A DNA stretch of 64,000 nt from Anaerolineaceae bacterium. GTDB taxonomy: Bacteria > Chloroflexota > Anaerolineae > Anaerolineales > Anaerolineaceae. Under the pieces are notes generated by a model. It did not search any database, was not told where the DNA came from, and was given only the letters and a program-made list of their open reading frames with translations. Location of the stretch: positions 62,001 through 126,000 of the forward strand of contig JAJUGU010000005.1 of NCBI GenBank assembly GCA_029265815.1, in the 5' to 3' direction. The translations under genes and the position numbers were made by a program. Shown piece by piece: positions 56,087 to 61,897 of this stretch (its first letter is position 1; the number at the start of each line of letters is the position of its first letter).

Positions 56087-56743
56087 TTACCTCTTCGAGA
56101 CTTTGAGTGCCAGTTTGCTGCCCAGAATTTGAATGCCCTGAACAACGACCACCAGCAGCACCACGGTGACGACCATCACCGCAGTTTCAAAACGCTGGTA
56201 GCCATAGCGAACCGCCACGTCTCCCAGCCCCCCTCCGCCGATGACCCCTGCCATTGCTGAATAACCGATCAGGTTGATGATGGTCAGTGCGATACCGAGA
56301 ATCAGCGAAGGCAGGGCTTCAGGCAGCAGCACTTTTCGGATAATCTGCCAGGTGGTGCAGCCCATCGCCTGGGCAGCTTCGACCAGCCCCCGATCGACTT
56401 CACGCAGGCCGGTCTCAGCCACTCGGGCAAAGAATGGAATGGCTGCCAGAGAAAGCGGCACGATGGCTGCTGTGGAGCCGATGGAAGTGCCCACAACGAA
56501 ACGTGTGAACGGAATGACCACCACCAGCAAAATGATAAAGGGCAGCGAGCGGGCAAAATTAACCACCGCGCCCAGAACCTGGTTGAGGGCTGGCGCACGC
56601 TTCAAACCGTTGCGGTCAGTGATCACCAGCAGCACACCCAGCGGCAGACCAAGCACCACGGTCAACAGCGTGGAAACCCCTACCATGTAGAGTGTTTCCA
56701 GCGCTGCATGAGACAGGTTGGGAATCCATACACTCCAATCCAT
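56087..56743 (-). CDS. metI: Methionine ABC transporter permease
   Basis: Membrane subunit of the D/L-methionine importer, 218 residues, with five helices. Family motifs: ETLYMVGVSTLLTVVLGLPLGVLL, NFARSLPFIILLVVVIPFTR, the EAA loop LVEAAQAMGCTTWQIIRKVLLPEA and GGGGLGDVAVRYGYQRF. The start ATG 56741-56743 overlaps the metN stop by one base (TAATG). It is the last gene of the metQ-metN-metI operon. Confidence 0.95.
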   Translation of the reverse strand: MDWSVWIPNLSHAALETLYMVGVSTLLTVVLGLPLGVLLVITDRNGLKRAPALNQVLGAVVNFARSLPFIILLVVVIPFTRFVVGTSIGSTAAIVPLSLAAIPFFARVAETGLREVDRGLVEAAQAMGCTTWQIIRKVLLPEALPSLILGIALTIINLIGYSAMAGVIGGGGLGDVAVRYGYQRFETAVMVVTVVLLVVVVQGIQILGSKLALKVSKR

Positions 56744-57720
56744 TATTTCACCTCCACGCGCAGCCCGGTCTCGCGCAGGTAGGTCAAAGCCTGTGGCACC
56801 TGGGTGCCCGATAGTTCGATCTGCAACCGCCCGATGCGCCTGCCGCCGATGACCTGGATGCTGCCGCCCAAAATGTTGACGTCGATATCGAACCTGCGCA
56901 CCAGGCTGGCCAGCACTGGCCGGTCGGCGGCCTTGCCGACAAAGGTGACCGCGGCACTGGTGGTCCCCGGGGTGTGAATGACCTCTTCTCCGCGGGGGAA
57001 GAAAGCCTGTGACAGCCGGCTGTCGGGGTCAACGATCAAGTCATGAACGGCACCCTCCTCAACGATGCGGCCGTCATTGAGAATAGCCACATGGTCGCAG
57101 ATCTGCTTTACCACTTCCATCTCATGGGTGATAAGCAGAATAGTCAATCCCAGACGGCGGTTCAGGTCTTTGAGCAGGCTGAGGATGGATGAAGTGGTTT
57201 GCGGGTCGAGGGCAGAGGTGGCCTCGTCCGAAAGGAGCACCCTGGGTTCTGTCGCCAGCGCGCGGGCAATGCCGACCCGCTGCTTCTGGCCGCCTGAAAG
57301 CTGCGCAGGGTAGGCATGCGCCTTTTCGGTGAGACCCACCAGATCAAGCAATTCCTCCACCCTCTCCTGCCGGTAGCGCTTGTCATAGCCGGTGATCTCG
57401 AGCGGAAAAGCCACATTCCCTGCCACGGTACGCGAACTGAGCAGGTTGAAATGCTGAAAAATCATGCCGATCTGCTGCCGCGCCCGCCGCAAATCTGCCT
57501 CTGGCAAAGAAGTCAACAGCTGCCCGTTGACGATCACCTCTCCCGCCGTGGGCCGTTCGAGCAGGTTAACACAACGGATGAGCGTGCTTTTTCCTGCACC
57601 GCTCGGGCCTACCACGCCGAAGATCTCTCCTGGGGCGACGTGCAGCGAAACATGGTCCAACGCCCAGACGGTTTGCCTGCTCTGGTTAAAGACCTTGCTG
57701 AGACCTGAAATCTGGATCAT
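56743..57720 (-). CDS. metN: Methionine ABC transporter ATP-binding protein
   Basis: ATPase of 325 residues. Walker A GPSGAGKST at ~37-45, FQHFNLLSSRTVAGN (Q-loop), signature LSGGQKQRVGIARALA, Walker B VLLSDEATSALDP (Asp-Glu retained) and H-loop ITHEMEVV. A C-terminal ~75-residue NIL domain (DRPVLASLVRRFDIDVNILGG) binds methionine and inhibits transport when the internal pool is high. Start ATG 57720 is preferred to an upstream in-frame GTG because AGAGG lies before it. It lies 70 bases after metQ. Confidence 0.95.
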   Translation of the reverse strand: MIQISGLSKVFNQSRQTVWALDHVSLHVAPGEIFGVVGPSGAGKSTLIRCVNLLERPTAGEVIVNGQLLTSLPEADLRRARQQIGMIFQHFNLLSSRTVAGNVAFPLEITGYDKRYRQERVEELLDLVGLTEKAHAYPAQLSGGQKQRVGIARALATEPRVLLSDEATSALDPQTTSSILSLLKDLNRRLGLTILLITHEMEVVKQICDHVAILNDGRIVEEGAVHDLIVDPDSRLSQAFFPRGEEVIHTPGTTSAAVTFVGKAADRPVLASLVRRFDIDVNILGGSIQVIGGRRIGRLQIELSGTQVPQALTYLRETGLRVEVK

Positions 57721-57787
57721 GGGCTTTTTACCTCTTTCTATTGTCTTTTGGTTCACCTGGTCCTGCGTGGCGAGTGTCCACCTCAGA

Positions 57788-58678
57788 CTAATAAGCCGGG
57801 ATCACCGAACCGTTGTACTGCCCTTCGATGAACTGTTTCACTTCGGGCGAGGTCAATAGACGGGCAAGAATTTTGAGACCTTCGTCGTTTTCACGCCCGC
57901 TTTTAACCACCAGAATATTGGCGTAGGGATTGTTTTCTCCACTTTCCAGCGCCAGCGCGTCTTCTCCAGGCACCAGCCCGCCTTCAAGCGCGTAATTACC
58001 GTTAATGACCGAGATGGTCGTATCATCCAGAGAGCGTACGAGTTGGGCGGCTTCGAGTTCGATGATGTCAAGGTTCTTCGGGTTGGCGGTAATATCGTTA
58101 ACGGTGGCCTCATAACCGACACCTTCTTTGAGTGTGATCAACCCGCTGGCTGCCAGCAGGTTCAGAGCACGCCCGCCGTTGGTTTTGTCATTTGGGATGG
58201 CCACCACCGCGCCATCCGCGACTTCATCCAGAGACGTGATTCTATTTGAATAGATTCCAAGCGGCTCGATGTGCACGGCGGCGATCGACACCAGGTCGGT
58301 TTTATGTTCGGCGTTGAAGTCGGTCAGGTAGGGCTGGTGCTGGAAGAAATTTGCGTCTAGCGTGCCGTCTGCCAGGGCCAGGTTGGGTTGCACGTAGTCG
58401 GTGAATTCAATGATCTCGATATCCAGACCGGCGGCGGGTGCCAGATTCTCTTTGACAAAATTGAGAATGTCTCCGTGGGGGACCGGAGAAACACCGATCA
58501 CGAGATGGATCGGGCTGTTGGCAGCATCTGAATCCACTGCGTCACCAGCAGCCTCATCTGAGGTTCCGTTGTGGGTACAGGCAGCGAGGGCAAAGGCCAG
58601 CGCGGTCAGCGCTGTGATGAAGCTGATGAGACGAAACTTACGATTGATTGACTTGATATTCCTTGTGCTTGTTTTCAT
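57788..58678 (-). CDS. metQ: Methionine-binding lipoprotein
   Basis: NlpA-family substrate-binding lipoprotein, 296 residues. Lipobox FALAAC with Cys34. The mature domain starts LVIGVSPVPHGDIL and contains VKENLAPAAGLDIEIIEFTDYVQPNLALADGTLDANFFQHQPYL, the MetQ/NlpA signature, plus NGNYALEGGLVPGEDAL. ATG 58676-58678 follows AAAGGAGAG; an in-frame TTG within the leader terminator is rejected. It is the first gene of metQ-metN-metI, preceded by a structured leader RNA with a terminator. Confidence 0.95.
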   Translation of the reverse strand: MKTSTRNIKSINRKFRLISFITALTALAFALAACTHNGTSDEAAGDAVDSDAANSPIHLVIGVSPVPHGDILNFVKENLAPAAGLDIEIIEFTDYVQPNLALADGTLDANFFQHQPYLTDFNAEHKTDLVSIAAVHIEPLGIYSNRITSLDEVADGAVVAIPNDKTNGGRALNLLAASGLITLKEGVGYEATVNDITANPKNLDIIELEAAQLVRSLDDTTISVINGNYALEGGLVPGEDALALESGENNPYANILVVKSGRENDEGLKILARLLTSPEVKQFIEGQYNGSVIPAY

Positions 58679-58724
58679 TTTTTCTCTCCTTTTGTGTGAT
58701 CCATAAATAGTTTGGCTTAAGAAC

Positions 58725-58751
58725 AAAAAACCACCCGGATATCCCGGGTGG
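58725..58751 (-). terminator. Attenuator hairpin before metQ
   Basis: Eight-bp GC-rich stem with GATAT loop and T6 on the minus strand, ending ~47 bases before the metQ ATG. No leftward gene upstream needs it, so it is regulatory. Confidence 0.85.
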
Positions 58752-58937
58752 CGTGAGTTGAAATATGGATTTAGTGTATCAGTCTGCCCACCGGTTATCC
58801 TTTGAAAATTTGAGGAAGCGATGGGCTCGATTCTTTACCGGTCAGTCAACACCAGGTGCGGAAGGCGAACTCCATCGCCTTCGCATCATCATGCTCGTGC
58901 AATTCAAGGTGAGTGCTTGACCAGTCAAATTAAACAT
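58725..58937 (-). ncRNA. Structured metQ leader RNA with terminator (candidate methionine/SAM attenuator)
   Basis: From the predicted +1 near 58937, an 87-base domain (58838-58924) is closed by CTGGTCA / TGACCGG. It holds a long hairpin TGCG-AAGGCGA / TCGCCTT-C-CGCA and a CACC/GGTG helix. A terminator follows: CCACCCGG / CCGGGTGG (58731-58738 / 58744-58751) with T6. CCGGTGG near 58787-58793 can pair with the terminator's 5' arm. A 31-codon frame (58842-58937) starts at the predicted +1 and holds three consecutive ATG codons (58884-58892). No known SAM-riboswitch core was recognised. Confidence 0.6.
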
Positions 58938-58943
58938 TGCATC

Positions 58944-58972
58944 ATGATACACATTCCCACCTTTGCTGTCAA
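58944..58972 (-). promoter_or_regulatory. Promoter of the metQ-metN-metI operon
   Basis: Minus strand TTGACA (58967-58972), 17 bases, TATCAT (58944-58949). Predicted +1 is 58936-58938. Confidence 0.75.
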
Positions 58973-59005
58973 GTAAGGAATACCCGCAATTTTCACGCCG
59001 GGCAT

Positions 59006-59035
59006 AAAAACACCGGCATCCATAGATGTCGGTGT
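59006..59035 (-). terminator. Terminator of the M23-peptidase lipoprotein gene
   Basis: Ten-bp stem ACACCGGCAT / ATGTCGGTGT (59010-59019 / 59026-59035, one G-T pair) with a T5 run on the minus strand. Confidence 0.8.
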
Positions 59036-59053
59036 CAGTCCTTCCAAAGATTT

Positions 59054-61783
59054 TTACCAGCCCACACCCCTGGCTTTTTTCTTCTTCTGCACTTTCTTAG
59101 TCACCCAGTAGCTGCCGCCCAGCAGCGCGGGGATGAGCGTTGAACCGCAGATCAAAGCGGCGGGTTCGACGCTGCTCTTCTGCTGGATGGTAAATTCATA
59201 TTGGGTATCCTGTCCTCCAATGCGGCTGTCTGCCGGGAAGAGTTTGAGGTAATAAACGCCATCCAGCGGTACCAGCCAATCGAGCGCGGCTTCGCCCTCC
59301 AGACTGGAAGGATTGGCCATACCCAGAAGGGTGGTACGGTCGGCATCGTAGAGTTCGATGCGGGCGGCCGATGCCGCGCTCAGCGATTTCGCCACAAAAC
59401 TGTAACCCTCGCCCTGCAAGGCCTGGAACGCAACCCAGTCGACATCGTTTGATGAACACCAGTTGTGAGTCTGGGTCACGCCGGGGTCAGCCGGTGCGGC
59501 GGTGAGAGATTCATCATCACCGGGGGTGACGCCCTCATAACCATCATCACTGCAGCTGAGGTTGATGTAGGTGATTGCTTCAGCGGTATCCGAGAAACTC
59601 TCAGCCGTACCGATTAAATCCACAGCCCTGATGCGGAACTCATAGGTCTTCTCAGCCGAACCCCAGAAGAGGGTCTGACGCAGGTTTCCACTGAGCGGTT
59701 CAGCCCAGTCTTTCCATTCGCCCCCCTGAACGCGCCACTGAAGATCAAAGTGATCGATGGCATCCTCTCCGCTTTCTACAGTCCATTTCAGCACCACGGC
59801 AGTTGAGTTGGTGATTTGAGGTAAAACAGCCATGGTCGTCACAGGGGGAGTTATTCCTGAGAGCACGGTGAAGGATTGGGTAACTGATGCGCTCCCGGCA
59901 AGATTGTGAGCTTCCACATTGAGCGTATATTTGCCTTCCGGCAAATACCCGAGATGCCATTCCCCACCAGATTGCCAGTCAAGAGAGTTGGAATATGCCT
60001 GACCGGTGATCGTCGCCCGGGTGTCAACACCCGATTCAGTCGTCCAGTTGATCGTTAGATCTGTATCCGTGGTGATTGCTGCCGGTAGGGTAATTCCGGG
60101 CGGGGTTGGAGGAACCAGACGCTCTACCACTTTGATTGATGCGGCGTTAGCCGTGCCGATCAGGTTATCCGCCAGGTTATCATCGCCGTCTTGAAAGAGT
60201 TCAACTGTCCCTTTGAAATCGAATTCCGGATAGAGTAGAGCTGAAACGCCTGATCCGAGCAAAATGGATTTAGCAGCATCAGCCATTACCTGATCAAATT
60301 GATTCATATCCGAATACTCGCCTTTTTCAAGAATCTGGCAGGTTCCCTGATATTCCGTATCAGAAAAGAGTGCCACCTGTGATTCGGTTGGAACGCATAC
60401 CGGTTCGAGGGGCGGGCAGTCGTAACTCTTGGTCAGTTCTGTCAATCCCTGAGTGTCGGTCGAGTACTTGCCGGCATTGTCCTGTACCACAAGAGAAAGG
60501 AAAAATTTGCCGTCTGGAATGCGCGCCTGACACACATCGATCTGCGTGGTGAAGGGCGAAGTGGTCTGAACATCGCCAATGGGTAACCAATCACCGTTGA
60601 CCGTGTACATCAATTGCCCGCTCGCCACACCTACGTCGTCCTTCATCCATCCGGTCACATTAAGGGTAGGAGAAGTGACGGTTGAATAGGCGGCCGGGCT
60701 GGAGATACCGCCGGTTGGCGTCTCGGCATCATTATTCCGCGAGACATACTTGTTTTCGGGCATACATTCATCGCCATATTCAGGAAAAGCCTCTGCTTCA
60801 GAACACAGGCGCGGGCGGCCGCCGTTGACGGTGACCTCATCGAAGACAATATCCACCGATTTTCCCCAGTAAGAGGTAGGATTGGTATGCACATGAAAAT
60901 GAAGATGATTACCGGTGCTGTAACCGGTATCATCGGCGTTTCCCAGAAATTGCCCCTGCACAACTCTTGCACCCACCGTGCGCAGTTCAACGGGAATGGA
61001 ATTTTGCGCTAAATGAAGATAGACCTGATAAGTGGTGGGGGTGGTGGTGGTATCTTCCAGCACAATATAATTGGCGTTGGTGGTGTTGCCGTTCTCATAT
61101 TTCCAGACCACGTACTTGACCGTGCCCTGTCGCGCCGCGCGCACCGGGAACATGGTGCCATTGGCAAAGTCAAAAGCATAGAGGCAGTCCGAAGGGCAAG
61201 ATTTGTAGGTAAACACATGGCCGATGCTGCCGGTAAGGCGCACGGTTGTGCCGTTGGTCCACGGCAGGCGATAGCCTTTATAAACCGTACCAGCTTTGTC
61301 TTCCTGCTGCACCGCAGGCATATAGTGCATTTTCTCTTCAGCCGAAAGCATCTTATCCGGAACCGACATGAGCACAGCGGCGAAATTGCTATCCGCCTGG
61401 AAGGTGAGCTGCCACGGATTTGCCGGATCGGTGGTTCGCTGCGCGATCACCAACCCGGGCTCACCGGGCTGGATGAAACCGGTATCCTTGTCCACGAGTG
61501 CGATCCATACCAGAGCCAGCTGATCGTCATCAGAAAATTGCACATGATCAATGCTTACGTTGTATACGATGAACGCCAGAACGTCTTCACGTCCGGCGGC
61601 AGATTTCTGGATGAGGTTATAGAGTTCGATCTCCTCTGCATCGGTCAACGTCTTGGGCGTCGGCAGCTGGGCTTCCTCTGTCTCCCCTTCTTCTGGAAGC
61701 ACCGAACACGAAGTAGAAATTAAGAGAAAGAGCAGGATTAGAATGGAGATTGATCTGGTTGTCATCGAAATAATTTTCTGCAT
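59054..61783 (-). CDS. Large surface lipoprotein with M23 peptidase domain, Ig/FN3-like repeats and pre-peptidase domain
   Basis: A 909-residue exported protein. The lipoprotein signal ends in LISTSC (Cys26). A ~160-residue domain precedes an M23/LytM-like domain (~185-310) with FDFANGTMFPVRAARQGTVKYV and the zinc motif TGNHLHFHVH, though the first His/Asp ligand context (YAFDFA) should be checked for activity. Ig-like (~345-440) and crystallin-like (CVPTESQVALFSDTEYQGTCQ) segments, two FN3/Ig-like domains and a PPC domain (~755-870) follow. It ends with a transmembrane helix and a basic tail (KKVQKKKKAR), unusual for a lipoprotein. ATG 61781-61783 follows AGAGG. Confidence 0.8.
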   Translation of the reverse strand: MQKIISMTTRSISILILLFLLISTSCSVLPEEGETEEAQLPTPKTLTDAEEIELYNLIQKSAAGREDVLAFIVYNVSIDHVQFSDDDQLALVWIALVDKDTGFIQPGEPGLVIAQRTTDPANPWQLTFQADSNFAAVLMSVPDKMLSAEEKMHYMPAVQQEDKAGTVYKGYRLPWTNGTTVRLTGSIGHVFTYKSCPSDCLYAFDFANGTMFPVRAARQGTVKYVVWKYENGNTTNANYIVLEDTTTTPTTYQVYLHLAQNSIPVELRTVGARVVQGQFLGNADDTGYSTGNHLHFHVHTNPTSYWGKSVDIVFDEVTVNGGRPRLCSEAEAFPEYGDECMPENKYVSRNNDAETPTGGISSPAAYSTVTSPTLNVTGWMKDDVGVASGQLMYTVNGDWLPIGDVQTTSPFTTQIDVCQARIPDGKFFLSLVVQDNAGKYSTDTQGLTELTKSYDCPPLEPVCVPTESQVALFSDTEYQGTCQILEKGEYSDMNQFDQVMADAAKSILLGSGVSALLYPEFDFKGTVELFQDGDDNLADNLIGTANAASIKVVERLVPPTPPGITLPAAITTDTDLTINWTTESGVDTRATITGQAYSNSLDWQSGGEWHLGYLPEGKYTLNVEAHNLAGSASVTQSFTVLSGITPPVTTMAVLPQITNSTAVVLKWTVESGEDAIDHFDLQWRVQGGEWKDWAEPLSGNLRQTLFWGSAEKTYEFRIRAVDLIGTAESFSDTAEAITYINLSCSDDGYEGVTPGDDESLTAAPADPGVTQTHNWCSSNDVDWVAFQALQGEGYSFVAKSLSAASAARIELYDADRTTLLGMANPSSLEGEAALDWLVPLDGVYYLKLFPADSRIGGQDTQYEFTIQQKSSVEPAALICGSTLIPALLGGSYWVTKKVQKKKKARGVGW

Positions 61784-61897
61784 CAGAGGCACCTCTTCCT
61801 ACAAAGCTCAAAGGAATACAGGTGCAAGAAACGCGCCAGGCTGCCTGCTGAAACTACACAGCACTTGAATGGTCGGTTTTAGTAGAAAATCAACGGG

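Follow-up and report, generated by a model that had tools for sequence, protein, structure and literature searches.

In the attenuators of the trp, his and leu operons of Enterobacteria, the leader comprises four pairing strands and a ribosome-binding site. There, as we propose here for a leader from Anaerolineaceae, the position of the ribosome at the codons for the sensed amino acid selects either the antiterminator or the terminator (PMC8079986). For methionine, a leaderless leader peptide named metL lies before metNIQ in Streptomyces lividans TK24, and an attenuator has been proposed for it (PMC8079986). Seliverstov and co-workers report that conserved RNA structures were not observed before the methionine operons of the Actinobacteria that were studied (PMC1262725). 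Mycobacteria, in turn, are described as carrying leaderless polycysteine sensor ORFs in which attenuation depends on ribosome speed (PMC9031893). Our search of open-licence papers found no leader-peptide attenuator of this sort for the phylum Chloroflexota, and the S. lividans paper was the one report it gave of a methionine leader peptide upstream of metNIQ.

Peptides resembling metL recur in Streptomyces and Kitasatospora. Sixteen Streptomyces and Kitasatospora loci were at hand, of which 15 were examined and one, truncated by a contig end (L076), was left out. When located by a motif script and judged by eye, metL-like peptides are present upstream of metNIQ in 10 of these 15 loci (L065-L091), with one unrelated match and four loci without any. 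The conserved peptides end in motifs such as GARCMCRMRAF followed by the stop codon.

The window, by which we mean the whole stretch of 64,000 nucleotides of Anaerolineaceae DNA that was analysed, carries a comparable leader in front of a metQ-metN-metI operon (Table 1). We consider it probable that this leader is a ribosome-mediated transcription attenuator that senses charged tRNA-Met and is on when methionine is scarce. Its components, namely a short ORF, the placement of the promoter, the positions of the Met codons and five alternative helices, are supported by comparison of related sequences. We infer that the ORF is translated and that the charging of tRNA-Met is the signal.

Table 1. 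Coordinates of the genes, promoter, leader ORF, pairing strands and terminator at the metQNI locus of the window.
Feature	Coordinates	Strand	Remarks
metI	56087..56743	-	NCBIfam MetI model, 221.5 bits, over its cut-off of 212
metN	56743..57756	-	Best NCBIfam match ABC_MetN, 407.5 bits, cut-off 499.7; start given is the first start codon of the open frame, and the true start may be downstream
metQ	57788..58678	-	Best NCBIfam matches are MetQ models, at 201.5 and 195.9 bits, under curated cut-offs of 374 and 228.85
Intrinsic terminator with T-run, CCACCCGGGAUAUCCGGGUGGUUUUUU	58725..58751	-	From sequence and fold
Strand 4, terminator 5' arm and loop	58740..58751	-	Target of strand 3
Strand 3, GGAUAACCGGUGGGC, antiterminator strand	58786..58800	-	Pairs with strand 2 or with the terminator 5' arm
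Strand 2, GAGCCCAUCGC	58818..58828	-	After the stop codon; pairs with strand 1 or 3
Closed domain	58837..58925	-	89 nt in the minimum-energy fold; outer stem P1 pairs codons 5-7 with the stop-codon region
Leader-peptide ORF, 31 codons, MFNLTGQALTLNCTSMMMRRRWSSPSAPGVD (stop)	58937..58842	-	Start codon falls on the predicted transcription start
Hairpin 1:1' inside the ORF	58861..58882	-	Minimum-energy fold
Strand 1, GCGAUGG	58872..58878	-	Codes for Arg-Trp; pairs with 1' or strand 2
Three consecutive Met codons	58884..58892	-	Positions -6, -5 and -4 from the Trp codon; proposed stall site
-10 box, TATCAT	58944..58949	-	6 nt before the leader ATG
-35 box, TTGACA	58967..58972	-	From sequence; 17-nt spacer to the -10 box

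An earlier note on this DNA had described a good promoter, a closed structured domain and a strong terminator just before metQ. Indeed, both promoter boxes and their spacer are present, as is the intrinsic terminator with its T-run, the end of which lies about 46 nt upstream of the metQ start codon; metQ, metN and metI follow on the same strand. The closed domain is there as well, at two nucleotides more than the 87 counted earlier. What the note overlooked is the 31-codon ORF, which, folded back upon itself, makes up most of the closed domain. Compared with its dinucleotide shuffles, the leader folds better (z -3.26), with 1 of 200 shuffles equally good. The stop codon of the ORF lies 13 nt upstream of strand 2. 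Because the start codon lies 6 nt past the -10 box, we expect the transcript to start on the AUG or right beside it. Just upstream of the promoter, a GC-rich hairpin with a T-run at 59009-59035 on the minus strand probably terminates the preceding gene (59054-61792).

A search by DNA similarity located the leader core in three relatives (G002, G044 and G012). A broader search with the MetQ protein matched 29 of 147 Anaerolineaceae genomes, and in 14 of these, the genome of the window included, a leader of the same type stands directly before metQ. The other MetQ genomes comprise eight with a second kind of leader, in which the operon starts with metN, one with a third leader (G017), two cut by contig ends (G145 and G138) and four with distant MetQ-like proteins (G132 and G135-G137, E 1e-21 to 1e-24). 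The assignment of the family to Anaerolineaceae is based on L049, from member G139: 20 of 20 of its 60-mers that were tested are present in contig CALCQT010000323, which belongs to an uncultured Anaerolineaceae bacterium.

A covariance model of the leaders (R1), run over the 147 genomes with stricter filters and 24 candidates scored per genome, yields the 14 metQ leaders at E ≤1.3e-8, with a single match in the genome of the window. The next match has an E of 0.011. This weak match (in G121) and another (G002, contig C207, E 0.021) were rejected, as no methionine gene is among the nearby ORFs listed; seven further matches range from E 0.42 to 0.92. Over 396 genomes of the class, R1 matches the genome of the window alone, which is a weak negative given stricter filters and 9 candidates scored per genome among the genomes listed. 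MetQ itself was found in 2 of the 396 genomes of the class sample and in 5 of 301 genomes of the phylum sample, counting the window's own. R1 was also run over 71 sources, which included some of the 80 MetQ loci as well as L062-L064, the three loci of the phylum sample that fall outside the family; it matched L034 only, a leader from which it was built. A search of plasmids with the leader gave one 22-base match, which we took as chance.

The 14 ORFs encode peptides of 27 to 34 amino acids, and their frame is open in every leader, whereas frames +1 and +2 are open in four and one of the leaders, respectively. By shuffling, the probability that the ORF frame would be open throughout is 1.5e-9, a value that ignores kinship. 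The promoter is conserved along with the ORF: TTGAC with a spacer of 17-18 nt precedes 13 of the 14 ORFs, and in 13 of 14 the start codon lies 6-7 nt after the -10 box, which is the position of a leaderless start (the distance in L036 is 17 nt).

When positions are counted from the Trp codon as zero, Met -4, Arg -1 and Trp 0 are invariant in all 14 leaders. The leaders were picked by the pattern CGRTGG, such that the invariance of Arg-Trp is in part due to selection, but Met -4 lies outside this pattern. Position -6 is Met in nine leaders, Trp in four and Cys in one. Together, the 14 ORFs contain 36 Met codons among 421 codons, where 7.3 are expected by composition, and their other two frames contain 5 and 15 ATG triplets. 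In some leaders the Met codons other than the start number one or two, and L038 has one only. Where close pairs of ORFs differ, the changes are not clearly biased towards third positions, perhaps because the sequence is also under constraint from RNA pairing.

The RNA that surrounds and overlaps the ORF can form five mutually exclusive helices, here denoted by the strands that pair. Strand 1 reads GCGRUGG across the leaders. On average over the 14 leaders, strands pair better with their own partners than with swapped ones: -15.9 versus -13.2 kcal/mol for 1:1' (p 0.0001), -17.0 versus -14.1 for 1:2 (p 0.0003), -15.4 versus -12.8 for 2:3 (p 0.0007), -14.7 versus -12.1 for the antiterminator 3:4 (p 0.0001), and -17.5 versus -13.0 for the terminator 4:5 (p 0.0001). 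Permutation p values for the five helices are thus 0.0001-0.0007 with 14 leaders, and they are 0.0001-0.006 with the 11 less redundant ones. Strand boundaries for these tests were set after looking at the leaders, but the control pairings 1:3, 1':3, 2:4 and 2:5 used the same pieces, and for these the own partners are not better than swapped ones (p 0.37-0.996). The outer stem P1 is marginal (p 0.012 with 14 leaders, 0.064 with 11). A possible antiterminator strand had been suggested earlier, and the pairing of strand 3 with the terminator 5' arm now gives it good support. As predicted from these sequences, the five helices are linked as a chain in which each competes with the next, an arrangement characteristic of attenuators.

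The chain suggests how the charging of tRNA-Met could be converted into a choice between termination and read-through. The transcript would start at or next to the AUG of the 31-codon leader peptide, such that a ribosome could begin reading without delay. If methionyl-tRNA is scarce, this ribosome would halt on the Met codons that immediately precede strand 1 and open hairpin 1:1', leaving strand 1 free to form 1:2. Strand 3 would then be free to capture the terminator 5' arm, and polymerase would enter metQNI. When methionyl-tRNA is plentiful, the ribosome would pass over strand 1 towards the stop codon and block 1:2; helix 2:3 would form, the terminator would fold, and transcription would end.

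We modeled this choice by masked folding, in which a ribosome is placed at each codon with its 3' edge 10-15 nt downstream of the P-site codon, counted from the first base of that codon. Such folding treats a kinetic process as if it were at equilibrium, and it allows a ribosome inside the 1:2 loop, which is perhaps sterically impossible. For transcripts that extend to the terminator loop, the predicted mean extent of 3:4 over the 14 leaders is about 4.3-5.6 pairs with the ribosome upstream of strand 1, falls to 1.7-2.7 pairs with the ribosome at positions -2 to +3, and is 3.9 pairs when the RNA is ribosome-free. It is high again at +9 and +10 (5.3 and 5.4 pairs, edge +14). The last permissive A site is -6 for edge +14 (5.5 pairs) and -4 for edge +10 (5.3 pairs), although a ribosome far upstream of the Met codons gives values equal to those at the Met codons. 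With edge +10, Met -4 is the last codon that leaves strand 1 free while the lower half of 1:1' is covered. The ribosomal helicase site lies near +11.

With the ribosome at the stop codon, 3:4 is predicted to average 2.6-3.5 pairs, depending on the edge. The individual leaders give mixed results at edge +14, with no 3:4 pairs in eight of 14, 2-3 pairs in L039 and L040, and 6-11 pairs in L032, L034, L038 and L047. In transcripts truncated after strand 3, a stop-codon ribosome is predicted to yield 2:3 (more than 3 pairs) in 11-12 of 14 leaders, whereas for A site -4 helix 1:2 is predicted in 10 of 14 leaders at edge +10 and one of 14 at edge +14, and for A site -6 in 10 of 14 at edge +14. When the transcript stops short of strand 3, the models form 1:2 for 11 of 14 leaders if ribosome-free and for 12-13 of 14 if a ribosome occupies the stop codon.

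For the window's own leader, the extent of 3:4 at A sites -6 and -4 is predicted to be 5.8 and 0.1 pairs at edge +14, 0.2 and 6.0 pairs at edge +12, and 0.1 and 7.5 pairs at edge +10. This result depends on the assumed footprint. In addition, 2:3 dominates for all ribosome positions tried in the transcript truncated after strand 3, and 6.5 pairs of 3:4 are still predicted when the ribosome occupies the stop codon. The ribosome-free RNA has 10.9 pairs of 2:3 and 0.1 of 3:4, with other leaders being mixed in this regard. The switch direction in this individual leader is only partly supported by the models, and for the window's family of leaders as a whole it is inferred.

The second kind of leader gives a clearer outcome in the same type of model. 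It occurs in eight genomes of another Anaerolineaceae genus (g17), where the operon order is metN-metI-metQ. Before metN, all eight (L169-L176) carry an ORF of 25-33 amino acids, picked as having at least two Met, whose start codon lies 6-7 nt after a -10 box. At residues 8-13 the peptides have G-[YE]-G-M-L-M in common, and x-x-R comes next. All eight leaders keep the ORF frame open, but six of the eight also keep frame +2 open. The strand after MLM pairs with the terminator 5' arm at a mean of -18.0 kcal/mol, and none of 300 mononucleotide shuffles pairs as well; own partners are not significantly better than swapped ones (p 0.16, n=7, with L175 omitted because its ORF is the same as that of L173).

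A ribosome at MLM is predicted to produce an antiterminator of 12-19 expected pairs in all eight g17 leaders at both edges. With the ribosome at the stop codon, the antiterminator is reduced to 0-0.4 pairs in all eight at edge +10, and to zero in six of eight at edge +14, where L171 retains 10.1 and L174 retains 4.7 pairs. Ribosome-free RNAs have 0-7 pairs. This is the logic of read-through induced by starvation, the switch direction of which is clear in these models, and it supports the same direction for the window's family in the modeled sense. Yet another Met-containing short ORF, MKRASMKYMIKAPLYFLWSCL (stop), lies before metQ in G017 (contig C194, L041); it has a purine-rich ribosome-binding site, is located just after a tRNA gene and is followed by a possible hairpin.

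The two leader families share a peptide motif, [M/W]-x-M-x-x-R, and one might ask whether the nascent peptide, rather than the supply of tRNA, is the sensor. That this motif senses free methionine or SAM, with the five-helix RNA cascade reading out the stall, is unlikely in our judgment; if true, it would constitute a bacterial methionine or SAM arrest peptide. The more specific version, in which [M/W]-x-M-x-x-R-W stalls the ribosome at high free methionine or SAM such that strand 1 is covered, 2:3 and the terminator form, and expression is off, strikes us as a little more doubtful still. Arrest of this kind has a precedent in the SAM-induced arrest of plant CGS1. It accords with the fixation of Met -4 in 14 of 14 leaders, the common R-W (in part a product of selection), the occurrence of M-x-M-x-x-R in two different leaders, and the models, in which a ribosome on strand 1, with its A site at -2 to +4, gives 2:3 in 14 of 14. 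However, the Arg and Trp are accounted for by the pairing of strand 1, and the residues around the motif are variable. A stall at MLM in the g17 leaders gives read-through in 8 of 8 models, which is the opposite sign.

Direct sensing by the RNA had been the proposal of the earlier note, which suggested an uncharacterised element responsive to methionine or SAM after the conserved core of SAM-I/IV was not found. That absence is borne out by Rfam covariance models, which match no SAM, SAH or T-box class here. No family reaches its gathering score in the window, and a permissive scan of positions 58600-59060 gives seven matches, none of them SAM, SAH or T-box and all far under gathering scores. 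The metQ leaders of relatives likewise have no Rfam SAM/SAH or T-box match. Two candidates were rejected: a fluoride riboswitch (RF01734) at 15.8 bits with a threshold of 34, which covers 16 bases of hairpin 1:1', and freshwater-2 RNA (RF02980) at 23.3 bits with a threshold of 49.9, which covers the terminator and ribosome-binding site only. Neither a known class nor a lack of conservation was found, the leader and its ORF being conserved in 14 of the 147 family genomes. The leader is therefore an orphan with respect to Rfam only, and its description as a methionine-related cis element with a terminator stands. A new aptamer is less well supported: the conserved part is an ORF with a fixed Met, and the helices are attenuator-like.

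We regard as very unlikely a true riboswitch, from a class not yet described, whose ligand is methionine, SAM or a related compound and which overlaps an unused ORF. Such an RNA would explain conservation before metQ, the lack of any Rfam match and control through a terminator. It would leave unexplained an ORF that is open in all 14 leaders and in register with the promoter, the Met codon at a fixed position and the high Met content, and the alignment has no apparent conserved unpaired pocket beyond the coding core and the pairing strands. Moreover, the same genome senses SAM with SAM-I riboswitches elsewhere. It has two matches to SAM-I (RF00162), upstream of genes L167 and L168, which we read from their translations as metK and metH; none lies in the metQ leader. 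SAM-I riboswitches occur in 13 of the 14 genomes with the window's type of leader, the exception being G149. In the relative G012, the strand opposite the metQ leader carries a SAM-I riboswitch (86.5 bits, positions 854-955 of L005) about 550 nt away, and the gene behind it looks, by our reading, like a homoserine O-succinyltransferase.

A general sensor of translation, which would respond to initiator tRNA or leaderless initiation, for example, rather than to elongator Met codons, fits the leaderless start in 13 of 14 leaders and the scarcity of Met codons in some of them, but is very unlikely given that Met -4 is kept in all 14 and that the window's ribosome-free RNA is predicted to terminate, which is the wrong sign if failed initiation meant starvation.

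If the leader is indeed an attenuator that responds to charged tRNA-Met, then methionine joins the amino acids that are sensed by complete leader-peptide attenuators with an intrinsic terminator and an antiterminator. On this reading, a single cell would divide the task of sensing: SAM would be monitored by SAM-I riboswitches before metK and metH for the synthesis of SAM and methionine, whereas the supply of methionine, as tRNA-Met, would be monitored for uptake by the importer. That two leaders, unlike in RNA and peptide, serve the same operon by the same principle within one family suggests replacement or repeated invention. A practical lesson is that a structured leader that appears to be an orphan should be translated before it is named a riboswitch candidate.

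Leaderless starts would link both leader families to the sensor ORFs of Actinobacteria. Like metL of S. lividans, the leaders presented here have a leaderless short ORF with several Met codons before a methionine importer operon (PMC8079986). Both peptide and RNA are different, however: a typical Rho-independent terminator is reported missing from the S. lividans leader (PMC8079986), whereas the leaders of the window's family conserve a terminator, an antiterminator and further alternative helices. The mycobacterial polycysteine ORFs are likewise leaderless and contain codons for the sensed amino acid, but they are described as sensing cysteine in another phylum and as regulating translation of downstream genes (PMC9031893). 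In the models, the g17 leaders closely follow the scheme of the trp, his and leu attenuators, whereas the window's family differs from it by its extra alternatives (1:1' and 3:4) and by a start codon that coincides with the start of the transcript. Attenuation by a leader peptide is of a kind already known; what is new here is its combination with methionine, a leaderless start, Anaerolineaceae and a chain of helices longer than the classic four-strand scheme.
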